A stretch of DNA of 64,000 nucleotides, taken from the NCBI RefSeq assembly GCF_008033235.1, contig NZ_CP042432.1, positions 2,294,001-2,358,000 on the forward strand, written 5' to 3'. Positions 16,553 through 62,562 of the stretch are shown here, piece by piece (the stretch's first letter is position 1; each line of letters opens with the position of its first letter). The stretch is from Anseongella ginsenosidimutans. Lineage in GTDB: Bacteria; Bacteroidota; Bacteroidia; Sphingobacteriales; Sphingobacteriaceae. A model generated the notes under the pieces. That model was given only the letters and a program-made list of their open reading frames with translations. It was not told the origin of the DNA and ran no database searches. Both the position numbers and the translations under genes were made by a program.

Positions 16553-17272
16553 ATGAAATCTTTATTTTCGTTTTCCAATATAATTACTGCCATTCTGGTC
16601 ATTTTCGGAGCTGCTTTGTTTTTCAGCCCCGCTTTAAAAGGCGCCGTACTTCGCGGCCTGGTTGAAACGGGATTGTTTCAGCCTTCGGTTCCCGGCACCG
16701 ACCCGGATACGGAGCCAGCGCAGGCTTCTTCAACTCCGTCTTCAGTCCCCGGCACCGACCCGGATACGGAGCCAGCGCAGGCTTCTTCAACTCCGTCTTC
16801 AGTCCCCGGAACCGATACGGAACCAGCGCAGGCTTCTTCAGCGCAGCCTTCTTCAATTCAGCAGGGGTCTGTATTGTTTAAAAGTGCGGAAGGCGAACTC
16901 ATTGACCTTTCCCGGCAGCAGGGCAAGGTGGTGTTCATAAACTTCTGGGCAACCTGGTGCCCGCCCTGTATAGCTGAAATGCCCTCAATACAGAAGCTTT
17001 ACTCAGCTTTTAAGGATGATGAGAAATTCCTCTTCCTGATGGTGGATGTGGATAATAAACCGGAGCGGTCCCTGAAGTTTATGCAGAAAGGTGATTATGA
17101 CCTGCCGGTCCATACACCGGCCAGCGCGATTCCTCCATCTTTTCTTGGCGGCGCCATCCCGACCACCCTGGTACTTGATAAAAAGGGGGAAGTAGTATTT
17201 AAACATGAAGGAATGGGCGACTATTCTGCCCCGGAGTTCCAGTCATTTATGAAGGAACTGGCCGCCAAATAA
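16553..17272 (+). CDS. TlpA-family periplasmic thiol-disulfide oxidoreductase
   Basis: A 239-aa membrane-anchored thioredoxin. I chose the ATG at 16553 because it begins the signal anchor directly (MKSLFSFSNIITAILVIFG); ATGs at 16508 and 16532 would add extensions of 15 and 7 residues. Residues 45-100 are a repetitive Pro/Thr/Glu/Ala-rich linker with three copies of a 19-residue unit. The thioredoxin domain follows, with the active site WATWCPPCIAEMPS and the cis-Pro in GGAIPTTLVLD. It would use electrons supplied by the DsbD encoded 15 bp downstream. Targets are unknown. Confidence 0.9.
   Translation: MKSLFSFSNIITAILVIFGAALFFSPALKGAVLRGLVETGLFQPSVPGTDPDTEPAQASSTPSSVPGTDPDTEPAQASSTPSSVPGTDTEPAQASSAQPSSIQQGSVLFKSAEGELIDLSRQQGKVVFINFWATWCPPCIAEMPSIQKLYSAFKDDEKFLFLMVDVDNKPERSLKFMQKGDYDLPVHTPASAIPPSFLGGAIPTTLVLDKKGEVVFKHEGMGDYSAPEFQSFMKELAAK
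16685..16852 (+). repeat. in-frame 57-bp minisatellite in the TlpA linker
   Basis: Two near-identical 57-bp units (16685-16741, 16742-16798) and a third, shorter one (16799-16852) encode SVPGTDPDTEPAQASSTPS twice and then SVPGTDTEPAQASSAQPS. The DNA identity between the first two is almost complete, pointing to recent expansion. Reading frame is kept. Confidence 0.92.
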
Positions 17273-21037: not shown

Positions 21038-21313
21038 CGTTTATTATCACATCGGTCCTTCTTAAAACCCGGAGTAACCGGATTTTGTTCCAGGGCGCGA
21101 TTTATATTTTGCCGGCGGGTTTTGCCCGGGCATCGCTTCCGGCGGTCGCAAATTACCCCCTGATTGTCGTATTCCGCCTCGTTCAATACTGAATTTTACC
21201 CCCACCTTTGTGAAAGAAAGATTGTTAAAAACAACTCCCATGTGGAGCAGCGACCACGTAAACGGGCGGAACCGAAAAGCCATACGAGTAGGATACGATC
21301 AAAAACTAATGTT

Positions 21314-28889: not shown

Positions 28890-31800
28890 TTAGAATTGTC
28901 CGGAAATAAACTGGAGTTCGTTCTTTGCCTGGAAGTAATTGTTGAGGCTTTCGAGAAAGGCTGTGCGTGTCCGGACGGCTTCGTCCGTTAATTGAATGTA
29001 GGCCGTATAGTCTATTTCCCCGTAACGGTAGCTTTTGGCTGCCGCAGTTACCTGCTCTGTGGCCAGGGGGAGCCCTTCCTCCAGGTAAAAATCAATGGAG
29101 GCCCGCGTCTTTTGCAGTTCTGCCTCCAGTTTCCTTAGCTGCCACTGCAATCTGGACGCTTCCAGGAGGAGGCGGTTTTCGGCAATCTTCTTTTCCGTCT
29201 TTGCGGCCTTTATGTTGCCTTTTTGAGGGATGAACCAAAGTGGGATTTGTATGCCCACCTGCCAGGAATAAAATCCTTTTTGTCCACCGGCCTGCTGCCA
29301 GGCATATTCTCCGCTGAAGGAGGGAAGCAGCTCCGCACGTGCCATTCTTATGCGTGCCTGCTGCACGCGAATGTCCTGCCGGAATGGTTCCAGGAGCGGG
29401 TTGCTTTTTAGAACCAGGGAGTCAGCCGCGTTTCCTGAATCAGCGGCGTTTCCTGAATTCGCCCCCTTTCCCGAATTTGCCCCCTTTCCCGGGTTTGTCC
29501 CTTTTCCCGGGTTCGCCCCCTTCCCCGGCGGGCCCGGCTTGTTTGCCCCGCTATCCTGCAGAATGTTTTGTCCGGCCGGAATCGACATTTCCTCCAGGTA
29601 ATGCACGCCGAACCGTTTTTCAATGCCCGTCCATCGCACGAGGGCGGCAAGGGCAATTTCATAGTCCTCGGTTGCCTGCCGGAGCGCCAGCTTTACCTTT
29701 TGATATTTTCCCCTTGCGGCCAGGTATTCCAGCCGGGGTGATTCGCCTGTTTCAAACCGAAGGAGGGCGGCTTCTTCAAAGCGGCGGTAAATACTGTCCA
29801 GTTCGCGGGTTACTCTTAAACGGCTCCGTGCAAAAGCGGCATGATAATAAGCCGAAGAGGTATTTTTTGTGACTTCCAGCCCGCTAAGATCCCGGTTGAT
29901 CTTGCTGAGCCGGATAAGTTCGCTTCTCCATTTGCTGCGGCTGAAGCTGCCGAAAATATCCACGTTTTGCTGCCCAATCCCTACCAGCGTCTGCACTCCC
30001 GGCCCACTACCGCCTGCTTCTTCCATACCGGTAAATACACGAGTGTCTCCAAGTTGCCAGGCGGTTTCCTTTAATTCATTTTGCTTCACTACAGACAGTT
30101 CGGCGAGCTTCATCGAAGGATGATAGGCGCGGGCCTTTTCCCGGGCTTCCTGCAGGCTTATCAGGGAATCCGTTTGCGGAAGCGGGTCCTCTGTAAACTC
30201 AGGAGTCCCGTTGGGGATTTCAGGAGCGTTGGAAGCCGCAGCATTGCCGGGCCGGGACAGGCCGGTCAGTATCCCGGTAAGGCAGAATGCGATCAGGAAA
30301 GATTTCATTGTTTTTAGTTTTGAACGATTAAGGGAACGCTGTTCCGTCCACTGGTAGAGCAGGGGTAAAACCAGCAGCGTGAGAAGGGTAGAGGTTAATA
30401 GCCCTCCGATGACCACGGTGGCAAGCGGCCGCTGTACTTCGGCGCCCGCCGAGGTGGAAATGGCCATGGGAAGAAAGCCGGTAATGGCAGCCAGGGCGGT
30501 GAGCAGTACCGGGCGAAGGCGTTCACCTGCGCCCTGCCGGATGCGTTCCCCGAGCGGGACGCCCTCGGTTTTGAGGGAATTAAAGCGGCTTACCAGCACC
30601 AGCCCGTTGAGAACGGCCACCCCGAAAAGTACCACGAATCCGACGCCGGCTGAGATGCTGAAGGGCATTCCCCGCAGCCACAGGGCCATAACTCCTCCGA
30701 TGGCTGCCAGCGGGATGGCCATATAGATCATCAGCGTTTGACTCAGTGAATGCAGGGCGAAATAAAGCAGCAGGAAGATCAGCGCCAGGGCCAGCGGAAC
30801 AACCAGTGAAAGCCGCTTTCCCGCCCGTTCAAGGTTTTCGAACGCTCCCCCGTACTCGATATAATAGCCTGGGGGAAGTTCCAGTTCCGCCTGCAGTTTT
30901 TCCCGGATCTCTTCCACAAGGCTTTCAATGTCCCGGTCGCGCACATTAATACCCACATAGGTCCTTCGCCGGGTATCATCGCGTGAGATCTGTATGGGAG
31001 CAGGCTGGTATTCAATAGTGGCAAGGGCCGAGATAGGCACCTGGCTTCCGTCCGGGAGGCTGACGTAGAGATTTTGCAGGTCCCGGATATTCGCCCGGTA
31101 CTGTTCGTCCAGGCGGATAACCAGGTCAAACCGCTTTTCCCCTTCAAAGATCACACCCGCGGCGGCGCCGGCGAAGGCGGCATTGACCATTTTGTTCAGG
31201 GCTTCAACATTCATTCCGTATTCTGCCAGCTTTGCCCGGTCGTAGGCGACAACCAGCTGGGGAAGGCCGCTGGTGGCTTCCACGCGCATATCGGCAACGC
31301 CGTCGATGCCGGAGATGAGCGAGCCCATTTCCGCGGCTTTGGCAGCCAGCACCTCCAGATCTTCTCCGTAAAGCTTCACGGCAATGTCCTCCCGGACACC
31401 GCTTATCAGTTCGTTAAAGCGCATTTCTATGGGCTGGGTGAATTCATAGTTCACACCGGGAATAAGCGCAAGCGTTTCTTTTATTTTTTCGATCAGCTCT
31501 TCTTTGGAACCTGCCGAAACCCAGTCCTTTTCCGGTTTAAGAATGACGAACACATCCGCCATATCCATGGGCATAGGGTCGGTAGGTACGTCGGATACCC
31601 CTATCCGGCTTAAGACATGTTCGGCTTCCGGGAAGTTTTCAAGGATCAGCTTTTCGATCCTGGTAGTTGCTTCCACGGTCTCTGTAAGGGAACTGCCTGG
31701 TTTCAGGATGGCGTGAAAAGCGATGTCCCCTTCGTCCAGCTGCGGCATAAATTCTCCGCCCATCCGCGTAAAGATAGCTATGGTGGCGGCCAGTAAGACC

Positions 31801-56248: not shown

Positions 56249-57976
56249 ATGATACGAGCAGGTATAGCTACATTTTTTTCAACCGCATTACTCCTGGCGG
56301 CCGGCGCGCTGAGCGCTCAGCCACTCTCCGGGGTGGACGGACTAGGCCGGGTCTTGCCGGGATATGAAGAGGTGGGCGGCCCTAAAGAAGGGAAGCATGT
56401 GGCCATGTTTTATTTTCTGTGGCATGGCGACGGTACTTCTCCGCATAGATGGGACCTTCATAAGATCATTAACAGCCACCCCGAGGTGCTGAATGATTTC
56501 GACAACCCCCACTGGGGCGGGGGTGGCATGTATTACTGGGCAGAACCAATCTACGGCTACTACCGGGCGGATGATTACTGGGTGCATTTGAGAAGCATGC
56601 AGCTGCTCAGCGATGCCGGGGTGGATATGGTAGTGATCGACGCGACCAACCGGCTTACCTATCCAAAACAAGCTGATGCGCTGATGAAAGCGATGGACGC
56701 ATTACGTGCCCAGGGCAGGAAACCGCCGAAGATCGTGTTCTATACCAATACGGCTTCGGGCGAGACCATGCAGGAAGTGTATGATAATTTTTATAAGGAA
56801 GGCGCGCCCTACCGGCATCCCGAATGCTGGTTCTACCTGGAAGGGAAGCCGCTTGTCATCGGCCATTCAAAGGAAGCCGAAGGAACGGACTATAGGAAAT
56901 TCTTTACCATCCGGGAGTCGCAATGGCCGAACGAGCCGCAAAAAGTGAACGGCTGGCCATGGATATCCTTTACAAGGCCTCAAAAGGTACATTATAACCA
57001 TAAGGGGGAAGCGGAGATCATCAACGTTTCCGTGGCTCAGCATCCCAATCCCACAGCGGGGATGGGAGGCGCGGCTTTTTACGGGAATACCGATAACTGG
57101 GGCAGGAGTTACCGCGACGGCTCTCCCGGCAACCCCGTGGCGGATATCATCCACGGGTATAATTTCCAGGAACAATGGGACTTTGCCCTGAAGCAGGATG
57201 TGCCCTTTATTTATGTGACCGGCTGGAATGAATGGGTAGCCGGAAAGTTCGCCAGTCATGACGATAACCCCGAACATTCCTGGTTCTGCGACCAGGCCAG
57301 CCCCGAGTATAGCAGGGACATTGAGCCTACCCGCACCGCGGGGATCCAGGACCACTACTACATGCAGCTGGTGAGTAATATCCGGAAATATAAAGGAGTC
57401 GCTGCCAACCCGCCTCTGGGTAAGCCGCTGGCAATCCGCCGGATGGATGACTGGAAGAAAGTGAAGGTGCTTTACCGCGATTATACGGGGGATACCCGGG
57501 AACGCAATCATCCTGGCGCCCAGTCAGAGCCTCCGACTGTGTATACAAATAAGACCGGCCGCAACGATTTTGACTTGCTTAAAGTGGCCAGGGATGAAGA
57601 AAATGTGTATTTCTATGCCCAAACGGTTGATCCGCTGAGCCCGTCGGAAGGCAGCAACTGGATGCGGTTGTACCTGGATGCAGATAATGATCCCGCAACC
57701 GGCTGGAATGGCTATGACTTCAGGATAAACGGCGGAAATAGCCTGGAGCAATACTCCGGTGGAACCTGGAAAGAAACCGCAAAAACAACTTACCTGGCGG
57801 AGGGTGACCAGCTCATGATCACCGTGCCCAGAAAACTGATCCCCGCTTTTGCCGGCGAATTGAATTTCGAATTCAAGTGGTCGGACAATATGCAGGATGA
57901 CAAGGATCCGCTGGACTGGTACATAAACGGTGACGCCGCTCCCGGGGGCCGTTTTAATTTCATGGTTAATGAATAA
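56249..57976 (+). CDS. GH99/GH71-like exported protein with C-terminal CBM9-like domain (copy 1)
   Basis: A 575-aa exported protein. Signal peptide FFSTALLLAAGALSAQ. Residues about 45-400 look like a TIM barrel related to the GH71/GH99/WbsX group: HVAMFYFLWHGDGTS, GYYRADDYWVHLRSMQLLSD, AGVDMVVIDATN, and FIYVTGWNEWVAGKF with the WNEW motif. Residues about 440-575 resemble a CBM9/DOMON-type module (YLDADNDPATGWNGYDFRIN, NFEFKWSDNMQ). The catalytic residues and substrate are not assigned; GH99 enzymes act on alpha-mannans, but that cannot be transferred safely. It overlaps the DUF5722 gene by 8 bp. Confidence 0.72.
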   Translation: MIRAGIATFFSTALLLAAGALSAQPLSGVDGLGRVLPGYEEVGGPKEGKHVAMFYFLWHGDGTSPHRWDLHKIINSHPEVLNDFDNPHWGGGGMYYWAEPIYGYYRADDYWVHLRSMQLLSDAGVDMVVIDATNRLTYPKQADALMKAMDALRAQGRKPPKIVFYTNTASGETMQEVYDNFYKEGAPYRHPECWFYLEGKPLVIGHSKEAEGTDYRKFFTIRESQWPNEPQKVNGWPWISFTRPQKVHYNHKGEAEIINVSVAQHPNPTAGMGGAAFYGNTDNWGRSYRDGSPGNPVADIIHGYNFQEQWDFALKQDVPFIYVTGWNEWVAGKFASHDDNPEHSWFCDQASPEYSRDIEPTRTAGIQDHYYMQLVSNIRKYKGVAANPPLGKPLAIRRMDDWKKVKVLYRDYTGDTRERNHPGAQSEPPTVYTNKTGRNDFDLLKVARDEENVYFYAQTVDPLSPSEGSNWMRLYLDADNDPATGWNGYDFRINGGNSLEQYSGGTWKETAKTTYLAEGDQLMITVPRKLIPAFAGELNFEFKWSDNMQDDKDPLDWYINGDAAPGGRFNFMVNE

Positions 57977-60221
57977 TAGCCTTTTCCGCTGCGTGGCAGC
58001 CATTACTTTGCTTTTTGAAGCGTTATTTTTATTCCCCGGACAGGCGCTTGCGCAGGACGGTTATTTGCAGCTTTCTGCTGAAAATGCCAACGATATCGAA
58101 CTTTCGGAAGCAGGGGCGGGCGCCTGCCGGGTGGAAGCAACCGGAGGCGATCCCTATTTGTTTACCGCGCCTCTTTCAGCTCCGCTCGAAAAAGGCCGCA
58201 GCGTACTTACTTTCGAATATTTCTCTGCCGGTTACCTGGACAAGTTTCAGGTGTTTTTTGGCCCACCAATTTCTGAAAATAACAGCCTTAGCGGCGAACT
58301 CGGCGTACGGGAAGGCTGGACGAGTTACTCACTGGACCTCAGCCGTGTATTGAATGACTGGGGAAAGAAAGGCGATTTTCTAAGGCTGGATCTTGGAAGC
58401 ACGCCAGGTTACCAGCTGCAGATCCGGAATATCCATTTCAGGAAACCGAATGCGGAGGAACAAGCCCGTGCGGCCAATTACGAAAAAAATAAGCGCCGGC
58501 AAGCTGTGCAAAAGGTGGCGCTGAAGAAATACCTTTACAATGATTATCCGCTGGAACTCACCCGGGTTTCGGTAAAGACGGACTCGATAATTATAGAAGG
58601 CACGTTGTTCAAGACCGGAGGCAAGCTTTTTCTGGCCGAAGTGCCGTTACATGAAGATATTGCCTGGGAGGCTTCCTTCGAATATCTTTTTGATATCCCC
58701 GCTGAATTTCAGTTTGACATTCCTGCCGGGAAATCGAAGGTTTTCGCAGGAACGCCGGAAAGCACGGCGGAGCATTCCGGCGTTAAGAGAAATGCCTCAG
58801 CACCTGTGGCAAAAACTGGCATGACGGCGGGTAAAACCGGGTTCCGGATGGCAATTCCGCGTTACCGGCTTGCAGACGATCACCAGGCTGATCGTCTGCT
58901 ATCCAAATGGGTCATTGTTGAGAAGGAGGGCAAGGACGTCCGGCTATTATCTCATGCGCGATATGCGGATCATATCGAATCGCTATACGACCTGCCTGAA
59001 AAACACCTGGCGGGTAAGAAGGGCATAGGCGGCTTTCATGCCGGTAAATATACCAGCGACCTCGATTCCCTGGGCATTACCAGTGTCACGGTGAACATGT
59101 GGATATCGAAAATGCTGCGTTCTCAGCCCTCAGACAATACCATTTCCTTTGAATACGGCGGAAAAACTTACTATGCCGACAAAAACTGGGTGGAACGCCA
59201 TGACCGTACCCTGCAGGAGACGGCCAAACGGGACATACTGGTTTCGTCCATTGTCCTGATCGATAAAGCGGTAAATACCCCTGATAAGACAATCGGGGCT
59301 ATTATGGAGCATCCGGACTGCGATCCTGCGGGTATTTACAGCATGGCGAATATGACTTCGGCTGAAGGAGTGGAATATTACGCGGCGGCCATGGACTTCC
59401 TGGCAAAGCGTTACAGCCGCCCGGATAAACAATTTGGGCGGATCCACCACTGGATCGTTCATAATGAAGTGGACGCCGGCTGGGTATGGACGAATATGGG
59501 AGAGGCTGATACATTGCTTTTCATGGATACCTATCATAAATCCATGCGCCTGGTGCAGAATATAGCCCGGCAATACAACCCTCATTCAAAAGCTTTTATT
59601 ACGCTTACTCATTACTGGAACTGGACCCTGGATAAACATTTCTACCTTTCCAAAGACCTGCTGGAAATACTGCTGGAATATTCTTCGCTGGAAGGAGATT
59701 TTGACTGGGGAATTGCTCATCATCCTTACCCGGAATCGCTTTTCGAGCCTAAAAGCTGGGAAGACGAAAAAGTGGATTACACCTTTGATACCCCGCTGAT
59801 CACGTTCAAAAACATTGAGGTGCTTGACGCCTGGGTAAAGCAGCCTTTCACCATGTACCTGGGAAAGCATAAACGGACAGTTTTTCTTTCCGAGCAAGGT
59901 CCTAATTCCAGGGACTATAGCGCAAAGAGTTTAGCCGAACAGGCCGCAAGTATGGCTTACGTCTGGAAAAAGATGGAAGTACTGGATGGCATTGAGGCTT
60001 TTCAGTTTCATAACTGGATGGATAACAGGGGAGAAGGAGGGCTGCGTATCGGGCTGCGGCGGTTCCCGGATGATGAAGAGGATCCGGCAGGCAAAAAGCC
60101 GGTTTGGTATGTGTTCCGTGACCTTGGCACGCCGGCGCAGGAAAAAGCCATTGAATTTGCGAAGGACGTTATTGGGATTGATGATTGGGAAGAGGTTCGG
60201 TATCGGAAGGCTGTTGAATGA
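57969..60221 (+). CDS. exported DUF5722 protein, TIM-barrel glycosidase-like
   Basis: A 750-aa exported protein. The ATG at 57969 gives a signal peptide (VAAITLLFEALFLFPGQALA); the upstream frame start at 57930 lies inside the preceding gene. Residues 25-170 resemble a carbohydrate-binding beta-sandwich. The rest matches DUF5722: IGGFHAGKYTSDLDSLGITS, ILVSSIVLIDKAVNTP, MEHPDCDPAGIYSMANMTSA, FGRIHHWIVHNEVDAGWVWT with a likely acid/base Asn-Glu pair, and TVFLSEQGPNSRDYS with a candidate nucleophile Glu. This layout suggests a retaining clan-A-type hydrolase (inference). Two GH99-like paralogues flank it. Confidence 0.78.
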   Translation: MNNSLFRCVAAITLLFEALFLFPGQALAQDGYLQLSAENANDIELSEAGAGACRVEATGGDPYLFTAPLSAPLEKGRSVLTFEYFSAGYLDKFQVFFGPPISENNSLSGELGVREGWTSYSLDLSRVLNDWGKKGDFLRLDLGSTPGYQLQIRNIHFRKPNAEEQARAANYEKNKRRQAVQKVALKKYLYNDYPLELTRVSVKTDSIIIEGTLFKTGGKLFLAEVPLHEDIAWEASFEYLFDIPAEFQFDIPAGKSKVFAGTPESTAEHSGVKRNASAPVAKTGMTAGKTGFRMAIPRYRLADDHQADRLLSKWVIVEKEGKDVRLLSHARYADHIESLYDLPEKHLAGKKGIGGFHAGKYTSDLDSLGITSVTVNMWISKMLRSQPSDNTISFEYGGKTYYADKNWVERHDRTLQETAKRDILVSSIVLIDKAVNTPDKTIGAIMEHPDCDPAGIYSMANMTSAEGVEYYAAAMDFLAKRYSRPDKQFGRIHHWIVHNEVDAGWVWTNMGEADTLLFMDTYHKSMRLVQNIARQYNPHSKAFITLTHYWNWTLDKHFYLSKDLLEILLEYSSLEGDFDWGIAHHPYPESLFEPKSWEDEKVDYTFDTPLITFKNIEVLDAWVKQPFTMYLGKHKRTVFLSEQGPNSRDYSAKSLAEQAASMAYVWKKMEVLDGIEAFQFHNWMDNRGEGGLRIGLRRFPDDEEDPAGKKPVWYVFRDLGTPAQEKAIEFAKDVIGIDDWEEVRYRKAVE

Positions 60222-60535
60222 AGTTTATAGTTTTAGTTTTTAGTTTAAGGTTTAAAGTTCAAGGTTCAAAGAGTTTATAGTTTTTAGTTCAAGGTTTAAA
60301 GTTAAAGGTTCAAAAAGTTTATAGTTTTTAGTTCAAGGTTTAAAGTTCAAGGTTTAAAGAGTTTATAGTTATAGTTTAAGGTTTAAAGAGTTTATAGTTA
60401 TAGTTTAAGGTTTAAAGAGTTTATAGTTTTTAGAGTTCAAAGTTTTTCAAGGTTCAAAGAGTTTATAGTTTATCGTTTTTTGGAGCTTAAGATTCGACGT
60501 TTAAGGTTTAAAGGGTTTTTAGTTTTTAGTTTTTG
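60222..60535 (+). repeat. AT-rich tandem repeat block made of GTTTATAG / TTCAAGG / TTTAAAG words
   Basis: Begins directly after the DUF5722 stop. Variations on GAGTTTATAGTTTTTAG, TTCAAGG and TTTAAAG recur throughout. The cleanest part is two perfect 29-bp units at 60359-60387 and 60388-60416, with a third starting at 60417. Almost no C occurs on the plus strand except in TTCAAGG. It contains no open frame, no palindromic CRISPR-type repeat and no unique spacers. From 60536 to the next start the sequence remains C-poor and I see no gene. Confidence 0.92.
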
Positions 60536-60593: not shown

Positions 60594-62450
60594 GTGAAAA
60601 TAGTTGATGGAAGAATTGTTAGTGCTGGCCGGGGCGCGAGAATGTTTGCTGCTGTTGGGGTGGTTTTTTTGTTGTTGACGGTGTTTTCTGGTGATTTGTG
60701 GGCGCAGCGGGACGGGGCGAATTATGGGAACGGGTTGCCGGCTACGGATGCTTTGGGGCGGGAACTTCCGGATGTGGAAGAGGTTGGGCCGGCGCGCAAG
60801 GATAAGTTTATTGGCTTGTTTTACTGGACCTGGCATACCCGGCTGTCTGAAAACAGCGATGCGCCTTACAATGTGTCTGAAATACTTGCTAAAAAGCCGG
60901 AGGCGATCAACGATTATAATGATCCAATCTGGCCTTCGCCGAAACAGGCAGGCTCCTTTTTCTGGGATGAGCCGCTGTTTGGCTATTACCTGGATACCGA
61001 TCGATGGGTGCTTTACAAGCATGCCGAAATGCTGGCTGCGGCTGGCGTGGACATGATCATGTTTGATTGTACCAATGGTGATCTTACCTGGCCGGAATCC
61101 TATGAGGCGCTCTGCGAAGTGTTCACGGAAGCTCGTAAAAACGGAATTAAAACGCCGAAGATCGCGTTTATGCTGGCTTTCGGCCCTTCCGAAGGCAGTC
61201 TGCAGGCCATGAAGGATATTTACACGAATCTTTATCAGCCGGAACGTTACAAAGATCTGTGGTTTTACTGGAAGGGCAAGCCCCTGATCATGGCCTATCC
61301 GGAAACGCTGACGGATGTTCCGGGAGACGAGAAGGAAACAGGGCTTCGCCGGGAGATGCGTAACTTCTTTACTTTCCGCCCGGGTCAACCCGTATACAAT
61401 AAAGGTCCGCAACGCCCGGATCACTGGGGATGGCTGGAGATAAGCCCGCAGCACGGCTTTGTGAAAAAGCCGGACGGCAGCTTTGAACAGGTAACGGTAG
61501 GGGTTTCCCAAAACTGGTCGGCGGAAAGAGGCCTAACCGCCATGAATGCACCCGGATCTTTCGGAAGAAGCTATACGAACGCCAACGGACATTCTGATAA
61601 ACCGGAGGCCGTAAATTATGGCCTGAATTTCCAGGAACAATGGGAACGGGCGCTGGAAATTGATCCTGAGCTTGTTTTTATCACTGGCTGGAACGAATGG
61701 ATCGCCGGCCGTTACGAGGAATGGCAGCAGCAGCATAATGCATTCCCCGATCAGTACAACCAGGAACATAGCCGGGATATAGAACCGATGAAGGGCGGTC
61801 ACGGAGACAATTACTACTATCAGATGGTTGCGAATATCCGCCGCTTTAAGGGAATGCCGCCGGAGCCGGAAGTTTCTCCTTCCCTTAAGGTTTCCGTAGA
61901 CGGTAAGTTTGACGAATGGCAGCAGGTAACGCCAGGGTTCAAGGCCCATACAGGCAACACGCTGCACCGGGATAGCCCCGGATGGAAAGGGAAGCATTAT
62001 ACGAACACTACTGGCCGGAACGATATTGTTCTGACGAAAGTAGCCCGCGATAAACGAAATATCTATTTTTATGTAGAAACCGCCGATGATCTGAGCCCTG
62101 CCGGCCAGCCCGGCTGGATGCGCCTGTTCATCGATACGGACCGCGATAAGAAAACCGGCTGGGAAGGCTACGACTATGTAGTGAACCGGGTAAGCCCGGG
62201 CAAAAAGGCCGTAGTGGAGAAGAGCAAAGAAGGCTGGAATTGGGAAAAGGCCGGCGAGATCAGTTATGCGGTCAAAGGCAGGCAGCTGGAGATCGCCATC
62301 CCCAGGTCTTTACTCGGCCAGCGCGGGCATGTTGACCTGGAATTCAAATGGTCGGATAATATGCAGGAAGAGGGAAATATTACCGATTTTCTCCTGAACG
62401 GCGACGTAGCGCCCATGGGCCGCTTTAACTATCATTACCACGCAGACTGA
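60594..62450 (+). CDS. GH99/GH71-like exported protein with C-terminal CBM9-like domain (copy 2)
   Basis: A 618-aa paralogue of the protein at 56.2-58.0 kb with the same architecture. GTG start at 60594, or ATG at 60642, which would begin the signal peptide (FAAVGVVFLLLTVFSGDLWA). TIM-barrel landmarks: FIGLFYWTWHTRLSEN, EPLFGYYLDTDRWVLYKHAE, AGVDMIMFDCTN, VFITGWNEWIAGRYEEW. The C-terminal module has FIDTDRDKKTGWEGYDYVVN and EFKWSDNMQ and ends GRFNYHYHAD. The first 60-70 codons use TTG, GTT and GGG far more than the rest of the gene and its paralogue. The last codons lie in an 18-bp repeat array. Confidence 0.72.
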   Translation: MKIVDGRIVSAGRGARMFAAVGVVFLLLTVFSGDLWAQRDGANYGNGLPATDALGRELPDVEEVGPARKDKFIGLFYWTWHTRLSENSDAPYNVSEILAKKPEAINDYNDPIWPSPKQAGSFFWDEPLFGYYLDTDRWVLYKHAEMLAAAGVDMIMFDCTNGDLTWPESYEALCEVFTEARKNGIKTPKIAFMLAFGPSEGSLQAMKDIYTNLYQPERYKDLWFYWKGKPLIMAYPETLTDVPGDEKETGLRREMRNFFTFRPGQPVYNKGPQRPDHWGWLEISPQHGFVKKPDGSFEQVTVGVSQNWSAERGLTAMNAPGSFGRSYTNANGHSDKPEAVNYGLNFQEQWERALEIDPELVFITGWNEWIAGRYEEWQQQHNAFPDQYNQEHSRDIEPMKGGHGDNYYYQMVANIRRFKGMPPEPEVSPSLKVSVDGKFDEWQQVTPGFKAHTGNTLHRDSPGWKGKHYTNTTGRNDIVLTKVARDKRNIYFYVETADDLSPAGQPGWMRLFIDTDRDKKTGWEGYDYVVNRVSPGKKAVVEKSKEGWNWEKAGEISYAVKGRQLEIAIPRSLLGQRGHVDLEFKWSDNMQEEGNITDFLLNGDVAPMGRFNYHYHAD

Positions 62451-62562
62451 AAGGTCGCGAAGACAGAACTATCGCGCGGACCGGACTGTCTCGCGCAGAC
62501 CGGACTGTCGCGCAGGCTGGAAGGTCTCGCGCAGACTGAACTGTCCGGGAGAGCGAACTGTC
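62438..62562 (+). repeat. seven degenerate 17-19-bp repeats crossing the gene's stop codon
   Basis: Units approximate TCGCGCAGACCGGACTGTC. The first (from 62438) contains the last three codons and TGA stop of the second GH99-like gene, and the array ends GAACTGTC at 62562. The remaining 62563-62683 has no gene that I can see and no clear promoter. Confidence 0.8.

Follow-up and report, generated by a model that had tools for sequence, protein, structure and literature searches.

The C-poor block at positions 60222-60535 of the window, by which we mean the whole analyzed stretch of 64,000 nucleotides of the Anseongella ginsenosidimutans genome, is an array of tandem 7-base words of the GTT type and is probably a gene-less, single-arm member of a heptad-repeat insertion family. 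The block starts with the base directly following the stop codon of one gene and ends 58 bases 5' of a second gene in the same orientation, and its repeats and neighbors are laid out as follows:

57930..60221, + strand: upstream gene with a C-terminal DUF5722 domain (PF18989); its stop TGA at 60219-60221 adjoins the arm
60222..60535, + strand (the sense strand of the upstream gene): GTT-heptad arm with 40 GTT words, 4% C and no partner AAC arm
60229..60388, + strand: higher-order repeat of 44 bp (six heptads plus two bases), 3.7 copies with 91% matches by Tandem Repeats Finder
60340..60428, + strand: higher-order repeat of 29 bp (four heptads plus one base), 3.1 copies with 96% matches by Tandem Repeats Finder
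60594..62450, + strand: downstream gene with a weak Glyco_hydro_99 match (21.1 bits, under the curated cut-off of 33)

Structure of the repeat block

The main heptads of the block are GTTYAAR, GTTTTTA and GTTTATA, and the autocorrelation of its 314 bases is highest at a lag of 7 (0.59), compared with 0.38-0.43 at lags 6, 8, 9 and 14 and 0.16-0.21 at lags 3-5. A preliminary description had drawn attention to a C-poor, strongly strand-asymmetric tandem repeat at these coordinates, and all of this was confirmed, with 4.1% C, 20.4% G and 40 GTT versus 0 AAC triplets. Equally C-poor stretches of 314 bases were found at 11 of the 6369 sliding positions of the window, all 11 of them overlapping the block, and the nine matches to GTTYAAGGTTYAAAG in the window (at most one mismatch) likewise all lie inside it, whereas 0.04 would be expected from shuffled sequences. 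We also agree that the block has neither coding nor CRISPR structure: none of the listed open reading frames of at least 80 aa is confined to it (one frame of 85 aa enters it by 21 bases), and a CRISPR array was rejected, the heptads being contiguous without unique spacers. A search for an inverted repeat inside the block found none, and its predicted RNA fold was not better than that of shuffles (z -0.5). The period of 7, the low C content, the sense orientation and an AG at the heptad boundary (AGTTY words), which recur in the arms described below, are all present in the block, and no complementary second arm occurs in its gap; single arms are common in this genome. Neither the period of 7 nor facing partner arms, which are found at other loci, had been mentioned in the preliminary description.

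The 44-bp and 29-bp periods are higher-order forms of one 7-base word. Such units show local duplication, which favors a rival explanation under which a short AG-containing seed behind a stop codon grows in place by replication slippage, the arms are neutral and facing pairs of arms arise via fold-back copying. Weighing this point against those given in the following sections, we consider growth in place unlikely.

Other repeats were also seen in the window. In the next intergenic gap, directly after the stop, positions 62441-62545 hold a C-rich tandem repeat of about 17-19 bp and 36 bp of the CGCAGACCGGACTGTC type, possibly a second family of words that behaves in the same way, and further tandem repeats lie at 16683-16840 (57 bp) and 29422-29528 (18 bp). 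When the window and nine loci were searched with Rfam at the gathering threshold, the sole match was a DUF805 RNA (RF03081) elsewhere in the window, at 21237-21298 (56.2 bits versus a gathering score of 51.1).

A dispersed heptad family in the genome

A BLAST search of the block against the genome, a single contig of 4.32 Mb, gave 58 matches including the block itself (40 of 92 candidates were scored) and thus excluded that it is a single occurrence, a point on which the preliminary description had made its idea of a mobile repeat depend. The exact word GTTYAAGGTTYAA occurs 172 times in the genome, compared with 1 + 1 occurrences of the reversed control pattern, and its distribution (82 forward versus 90 reverse) reveals no preference for one genome strand. 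In order to count arms, we sampled 40 regularly spaced stretches of 20 kb (800 kb) and 20 stretches around known arrays; the regular stretches contained 24 arms, leading to an estimate of about 130 arms per genome.

The periodicity was specific to 7 bases. Across 464 kb, made up of the window and the first 20 stretches, we found 13 arrays of at least four chained GTT at period 7 and not a single one at periods 4-6 and 8-12, while seven other triplets gave 0-3 period-7 arrays each. In the heptad that precedes an anchor word, conservation was G.87, T.88, T.90, Y.90, A.70, A.67 and R.95, measured in arrays picked by GTT, so that the first three positions are partly ascertained. Neutral slippage does not predict that period 7 alone is used, nor that GTT is conserved while positions 5-6 are freer, and the recurrence of the same words in this genome at dozens of sites unrelated to each other further argues against growth in place. 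Within or before many arms we also observed a small hairpin, GTTGCTTCGCAAC (e.g. L106 5258-5612 and L077 17985-18145), which in the form followed by GTTYRA is present in 56 copies in this genome and in none of nine other genomes.

Placement, orientation and folding of the arms

The position of the arms was assessed for 66 of them, drawn from the sample, the window and targeted stretches. A gene on the same strand lies upstream of 55 of these arms, in 37 cases with its stop no more than 50 nt away. The remaining 11 arms comprise eight second arms opposite a sense arm in one gap, two arms of the rRNA operon and a solitary antisense arm (L077). Divergent gaps carried no arm (0/97) compared with 16/326 other gaps in the sample and window (p 0.014). 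The arms thus track the stop codon of the preceding gene, which lends no support to the suggestion in the preliminary description of a regulatory element for the downstream gene. As for their strand relative to genes, another point raised there, 15 of 16 lone arms in tandem gaps are sense. When a gap holds two arms, GTT stands left and AAC right in 18 of 18 simple cases, and a single mixed case was seen in the rRNA region; lowering the threshold to three words gave 20 facing gaps and two mixed ones, and gaps with the reverse order alone were not found. Facing regions are predicted to fold (median z -4.7, n=18, one positive), compared with a median z of -1.7 for single arm sequences of at least 60 nt (40 of the 66) and of -0.7 for array-less convergent gaps (n=15).

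Arms also occur inside operons. In the first nuo operon (names by NCBIfam) the order is nuoD, a GTT arm of 137 bp, nuoE, an arm, a PF05635 gene, a second arm and nuoF. In the second nuo operon, the D/E junction holds a facing pair whose GTT arm consists of three chained words, and a further GTT arm separates H from I. In the rRNA operon, facing heptad arms occupy the 23S-5S and tRNA-Ala/tRNA-Ile spacers (L062 6712-6793 and 10148-10276), and a further arm lies between tRNA-Gly and tRNA-Thr (L071).

The location of sense arms right after stops, their tendency to be more frequent in convergent than in tandem gaps (7/75 versus 9/251, p 0.06) and the folding of facing arms would fit a host device at the 3' end of chosen genes, either a terminator or an mRNA-stabilizing 3' UTR. 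However, arms also sit in rRNA/tRNA spacers and inside the nuo operons, places at which a terminator would be expected to do harm, and this indicates that they are not simply terminators. In addition, three or more chained words were found in sense at just 16 of 408 gene ends (antisense at 3), and the arms are therefore not a general 3' signal of the genome. The window arm, moreover, is without structure, and the matching places in a genome of the same genus (G001) are repeat-free, which together make such a device quite improbable.

Comparison with a genome of the same genus

In G001, which is 92% complete, all five comparable sites are without repeats, and GTTYAAGGTTYAA was not found. The nuoD-nuoE gap of the first nuo operon measures 4 bases there and nuoE overlaps nuoF; in the second nuo operon the D/E junction is 125 bp in A. 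ginsenosidimutans versus 4 in G001, and the H-I spacing 186 versus 44. At the window locus the array is absent from G001 and a single frame of about 1355 codons, joined by a short linker, covers both the DUF5722 gene and its neighbor (G001:C10:34801-41000; L355, L362), possibly as the result of a fusion, or as the ancestral state prior to a split by the array. The site in G001 is an in-frame linker rather than a clean empty site, and a target duplication is not visible. At nuoE/nuoF the G001 string AAATACAAATGAAACC corresponds in A. ginsenosidimutans to AAATACAAAT, the element and (T)ACAAATGAAACC, an arrangement that has the appearance of a 6-7-bp target duplication; at the other sites compared with G001 none was evident. 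As far as sequence goes, this comparison supports the mobile or expanding intergenic repeat of the preliminary description, in that the family is dispersed and the five sites are repeat-free in G001, without cleanly separating insertion from growth in place.

PF05635 genes and their flanks

The sole PF05635 (23S rRNA IVP, S23) gene of the genome, as compared with about 130 arms, is the one at nuoE/nuoF, where it stands between facing arms of the same words. A general rule that arrays flank PF05635 genes was rejected, given this one gene here and, in a search with a profile built from the genome's own protein, the absence of PF05635 from the DNA examined around 115 of 120 pattern loci listed in many genomes; it stood between the arms in three loci (L174, L188, L189) and in two (L217, L261) it was over 2 kb away from the array that had been matched. 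The converse, that PF05635 genes are flanked by heptads, appears to hold in general, judging from the flanks described below.

PF05635 was present in 122 of 149 Bacteroidia genomes searched, and 67 loci of the class were analyzed (30 first, of which 3 at contig ends were dropped, and 40 further ones), chosen among the strongest matches and hence not a random sample. In their 200-bp flanks the best 45-base score at lag 7 averaged 0.589, whereas the two control sets, 296 flanks of small A. ginsenosidimutans genes and 54 distant flanks taken from these loci, averaged 0.402 and 0.385; similarly, the lag-14 score was 0.584 versus 0.420 and 0.409. A score of 0.70 was reached by 44 of 134 flanks (18 at lag 7, 17 at lag 14, 6 at lag 8 and 3 at others) and at no lag by the other 90, while it was reached by 7 of the 296 (4 at lag 14, 0 at lag 7) and 0 of the 54 control flanks.

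The two flanks of one locus are mostly complementary to each other. Complementarity between left and right flank averaged 36.7, compared with 19.8 for mismatched pairs with other PF05635 loci of the same genome (n=154) and 18.7 with other genomes (n=4268), and exceeded the 99th percentile of mismatched pairs in 40 of 67 loci, with 27 not doing so. Direct similarity of the two flanks averaged 22.6, and 7 of 67 loci, L275 being the clearest, were above the 99th percentile of that measure, in place of complementarity or in addition to it. Since an arm is complementary to its own partner without matching other loci, the words are mostly those of the element and not those of the genome, and the idea of genome-specific words was not borne out. 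The words recognized by eye at these loci include GTATCAG, AGCTTGT, AGATNNG and GTACNNR among others, and this use of other words by other elements accounts for the low yield of a GTT-only detection, which found a left arm in just 2 of 30 cases. Common to the arms are 8% C and an AG at the heptad boundary, counted in those flanks whose lag-7 score was at least 0.6 (66 of 134), with the phase of the G picked by maximum and the preceding A not so picked. That arms match within an element far better than across elements is also what fold-back copying, and thus growth in place, predicts; the placement behind stop codons and the presence of PF05635 between arms are not predicted by neutral slippage.

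With 13 ambiguous loci set aside, the neighbors of the gene were co-directional in 50 of 54 clear loci (47 sense and 3 antisense), convergent in 3 and divergent in 1, compared with 251 tandem gaps among 423 in the A. ginsenosidimutans sample (p 3e-7). The junctions occupied, named by NCBIfam, include groES/groEL (L299), sufB/sufC (L333), kdpA/kdpB (L300) and sucB/lpd (L270). The PDB entries that match the PF05635 protein of the genome, 2gsc and 2rld, contain five chains each.

Heptad arms in other genomes

In a survey of the phylum, 119 of 395 genomes had at least one run of four GTTYNNR, some of these counts being simple repeats according to the control columns, and 276 had none. In named genomes, a search for five GTTYAAR gave at least 120 loci, and among the matches listed (80 record titles) are Bacteroidota, Chlorobi, Desulfobacterales and other deltaproteobacteria, Verrucomicrobia, Acidobacteria, beta- and gammaproteobacteria, cyanobacteria and others. 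Opposite neighboring arms less than 600 bp apart were facing in 30 of 31 cases among the 120 listed loci, which come from many phyla. Twenty regions chosen from G048, G041 and G057 carry heptad arms, in the first two genomes often as short-loop hairpins.

The spacer between groES and groEL was compared among 30 related species, selected by closest GroES from a search of 121 genomes. It contained a PF05635-like gene between arms in four of them and, in one (L373), a facing pair made of other words and lacking the gene, while many of the rest had, by eye, short sense heptads such as GTATTAA GTACGAA. The words in this spacer, again by eye, vary by species (GCTTTAA, TTTTGGC or GTATTAA), as growth in place would lead one to expect, and such differences at one site could reflect either repeated insertion or rapid drift. 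In two species (L393, L394) the same spacer holds an unrelated C-rich hairpin pair (CTCCCC...GGGGAG).

Proposed explanation

Our reading as a whole, towards which we lean slightly, is that the window block is a gene-less, single-arm insertion behind a stop codon that is tolerated as spare RNA or as RNA cut by RNase III. A full element would consist of a C-poor sense arm with an AG every 7 bases, a loop or a PF05635 gene, and a complementary antisense arm; in the window block the boundary AG would be that of AGTTY. The elements would settle directly behind stop codons, copies being inserted and not grown in place, and we see roughly even chances that the family spreads by insertion. Tolerance may be due to an inter-cistron RNA that is either unstructured, in the case of a single arm, or a long hairpin cleavable by RNase III, similar to the intervening sequences (IVS) of 23S rRNA. 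The ring-shaped, pentameric S23 protein might read the AG-heptad arm in a TRAP-like manner, with gene-less arms as passengers, and that this protein recognizes such arms, a notion drawn from analogy, seems doubtful. Points that weigh against the reading are the lack of a partner arm and of a gene in the window copy, the in-frame linker at its place in G001, a target duplication seen at one site, the rarity of PF05635 at the 120 pattern loci and, relative to the number of arms, in this genome, the 27 loci and 90 flanks below the thresholds given above, the low yield of the GTT-only detection, and the lack of GTTYNNR runs in 276 of 395 genomes of the phylum as opposed to the wide presence of PF05635 in the class.

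More broadly, and as a tentative possibility, heptad arms and PF05635 might form one class of insertions across Bacteroidota and beyond, each with private AGNNNNN words and its own second arm, in which the S23 homopentamer would read the AG spacing of 7 in its own RNA and either regulate the element or copy it into cistron junctions, the hairpin making it harmless there; the window block would then be an arm multiplied by the nuoE/nuoF element. If true, PF05635 proteins would gain a rule for their nucleic-acid target, as might their relatives, the Avd proteins of diversity-generating retroelements, and the 7-base period of the flanks with element-private words provides a concrete clue to what PF05635 binds. 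Likewise, the IVS of rRNA, intergenic heptamer repeats and insertions at operon junctions would be joined as one testable class, and the spacers of core operons (nuo, groE, suf, kdp, sucB-lpd) would have been reshaped by such elements.

Comparison with known systems

Among the open-licence papers listed in our searches, taken without their supplements, none joined PF05635 genes to heptad arms or described facing arms, element-private words or PF05635 between arms. The nearest counterparts are the intergenic direct repeats of the heptamer TAACTGA (MacGregor, 2015; PMC4679880) and the IVS of 23S rRNA described below. The TAACTGA repeats consist of one fixed word located mostly just before start codons, for which translational control was proposed, and one set in reverse orientation lies behind a stop codon; other heptamer repeats occur alongside in Bacteroidetes, and close relatives are without them. 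The window block shares with the TAACTGA repeats the intergenic, tandem direct repetition of 7 bases but differs in its words (GTTYAAR, GTTTTTA and GTTTATA) and in adjoining a stop and not a start codon, while facing arms and a PF05635 gene are not described for the TAACTGA repeats in the accessible text (PMC4679880). The reverse complement of TAACTGA, TCAGTTA, equals AGTTATC in another phase and thus fits the rule of an AG every 7 bases.

The IVS of 23S rRNA contain an S23p open reading frame bordered by complementary, stem-forming sequences, measure about 430 nt and are excised by RNase III, and the S23p of Xanthomonas is a homopentameric ring, the function of S23p in general being stated there as not known (Warrier, 2016; PMC4990558). 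While IVS lie in rRNA genes, heptad arms lie between genes, are mostly gene-less and are built of heptad repeats. The window block in particular stands between two protein genes without a stem and without an S23p (PF05635) reading frame, and IVS-like features are found elsewhere in the genome, where facing pairs fold and PF05635 is present at nuoE/nuoF. Because the rRNA location, the stem and the reading frame all fail, we group the block with the intergenic heptamer repeats, as a variant of them, rather than with the IVS. PF05635 was also noted to resemble Avd of diversity-generating retroelements (PMC10053308). In Flavobacterium columnare, a four helix bundle gene lies, with intervening gaps of 33 to 88 bases, between the genes for guanylate kinase and nicotinate nucleotide adenylyltransferase (PMC5524665), and is possibly another example of such an element.

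In comparing the arms with other dispersed repeats, we also weighed whether they are REP/BIME-like and mobilized by a RAYT (Y1) transposase. REP/BIME and MITE elements are short, palindromic, extragenic and dispersed, often near gene ends, and the heptad arms resemble them in being extragenic, dispersed and palindromic as pairs, with the small hairpin embedded in some arms. The arms differ from these elements in being tandem heptads without fixed ends, and no RAYT match (PF01797, E 0.001) occurs in the A. ginsenosidimutans genome or in G045, despite 13 GTTYAAGGTTYAA matches and heptad-flanked PF05635 genes in the latter; PF01797 is present in the arm-bearing genomes G041, G048 and G057. Taken together, movement by a RAYT transposase appears highly improbable. 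As for traits of MITEs, paired arms are inverted, and an apparent 6-7-bp duplication was seen once (nuoE/nuoF) and was not evident elsewhere. Finally, TRAP is a ring protein that binds RNA with spaced NAG triplets. TRAP and the proposed reading by S23 have in common a ring and a regularly spaced AG, with a spacing of 7 and a different protein fold in the case of S23, so that the likeness between the two is one of analogy alone.
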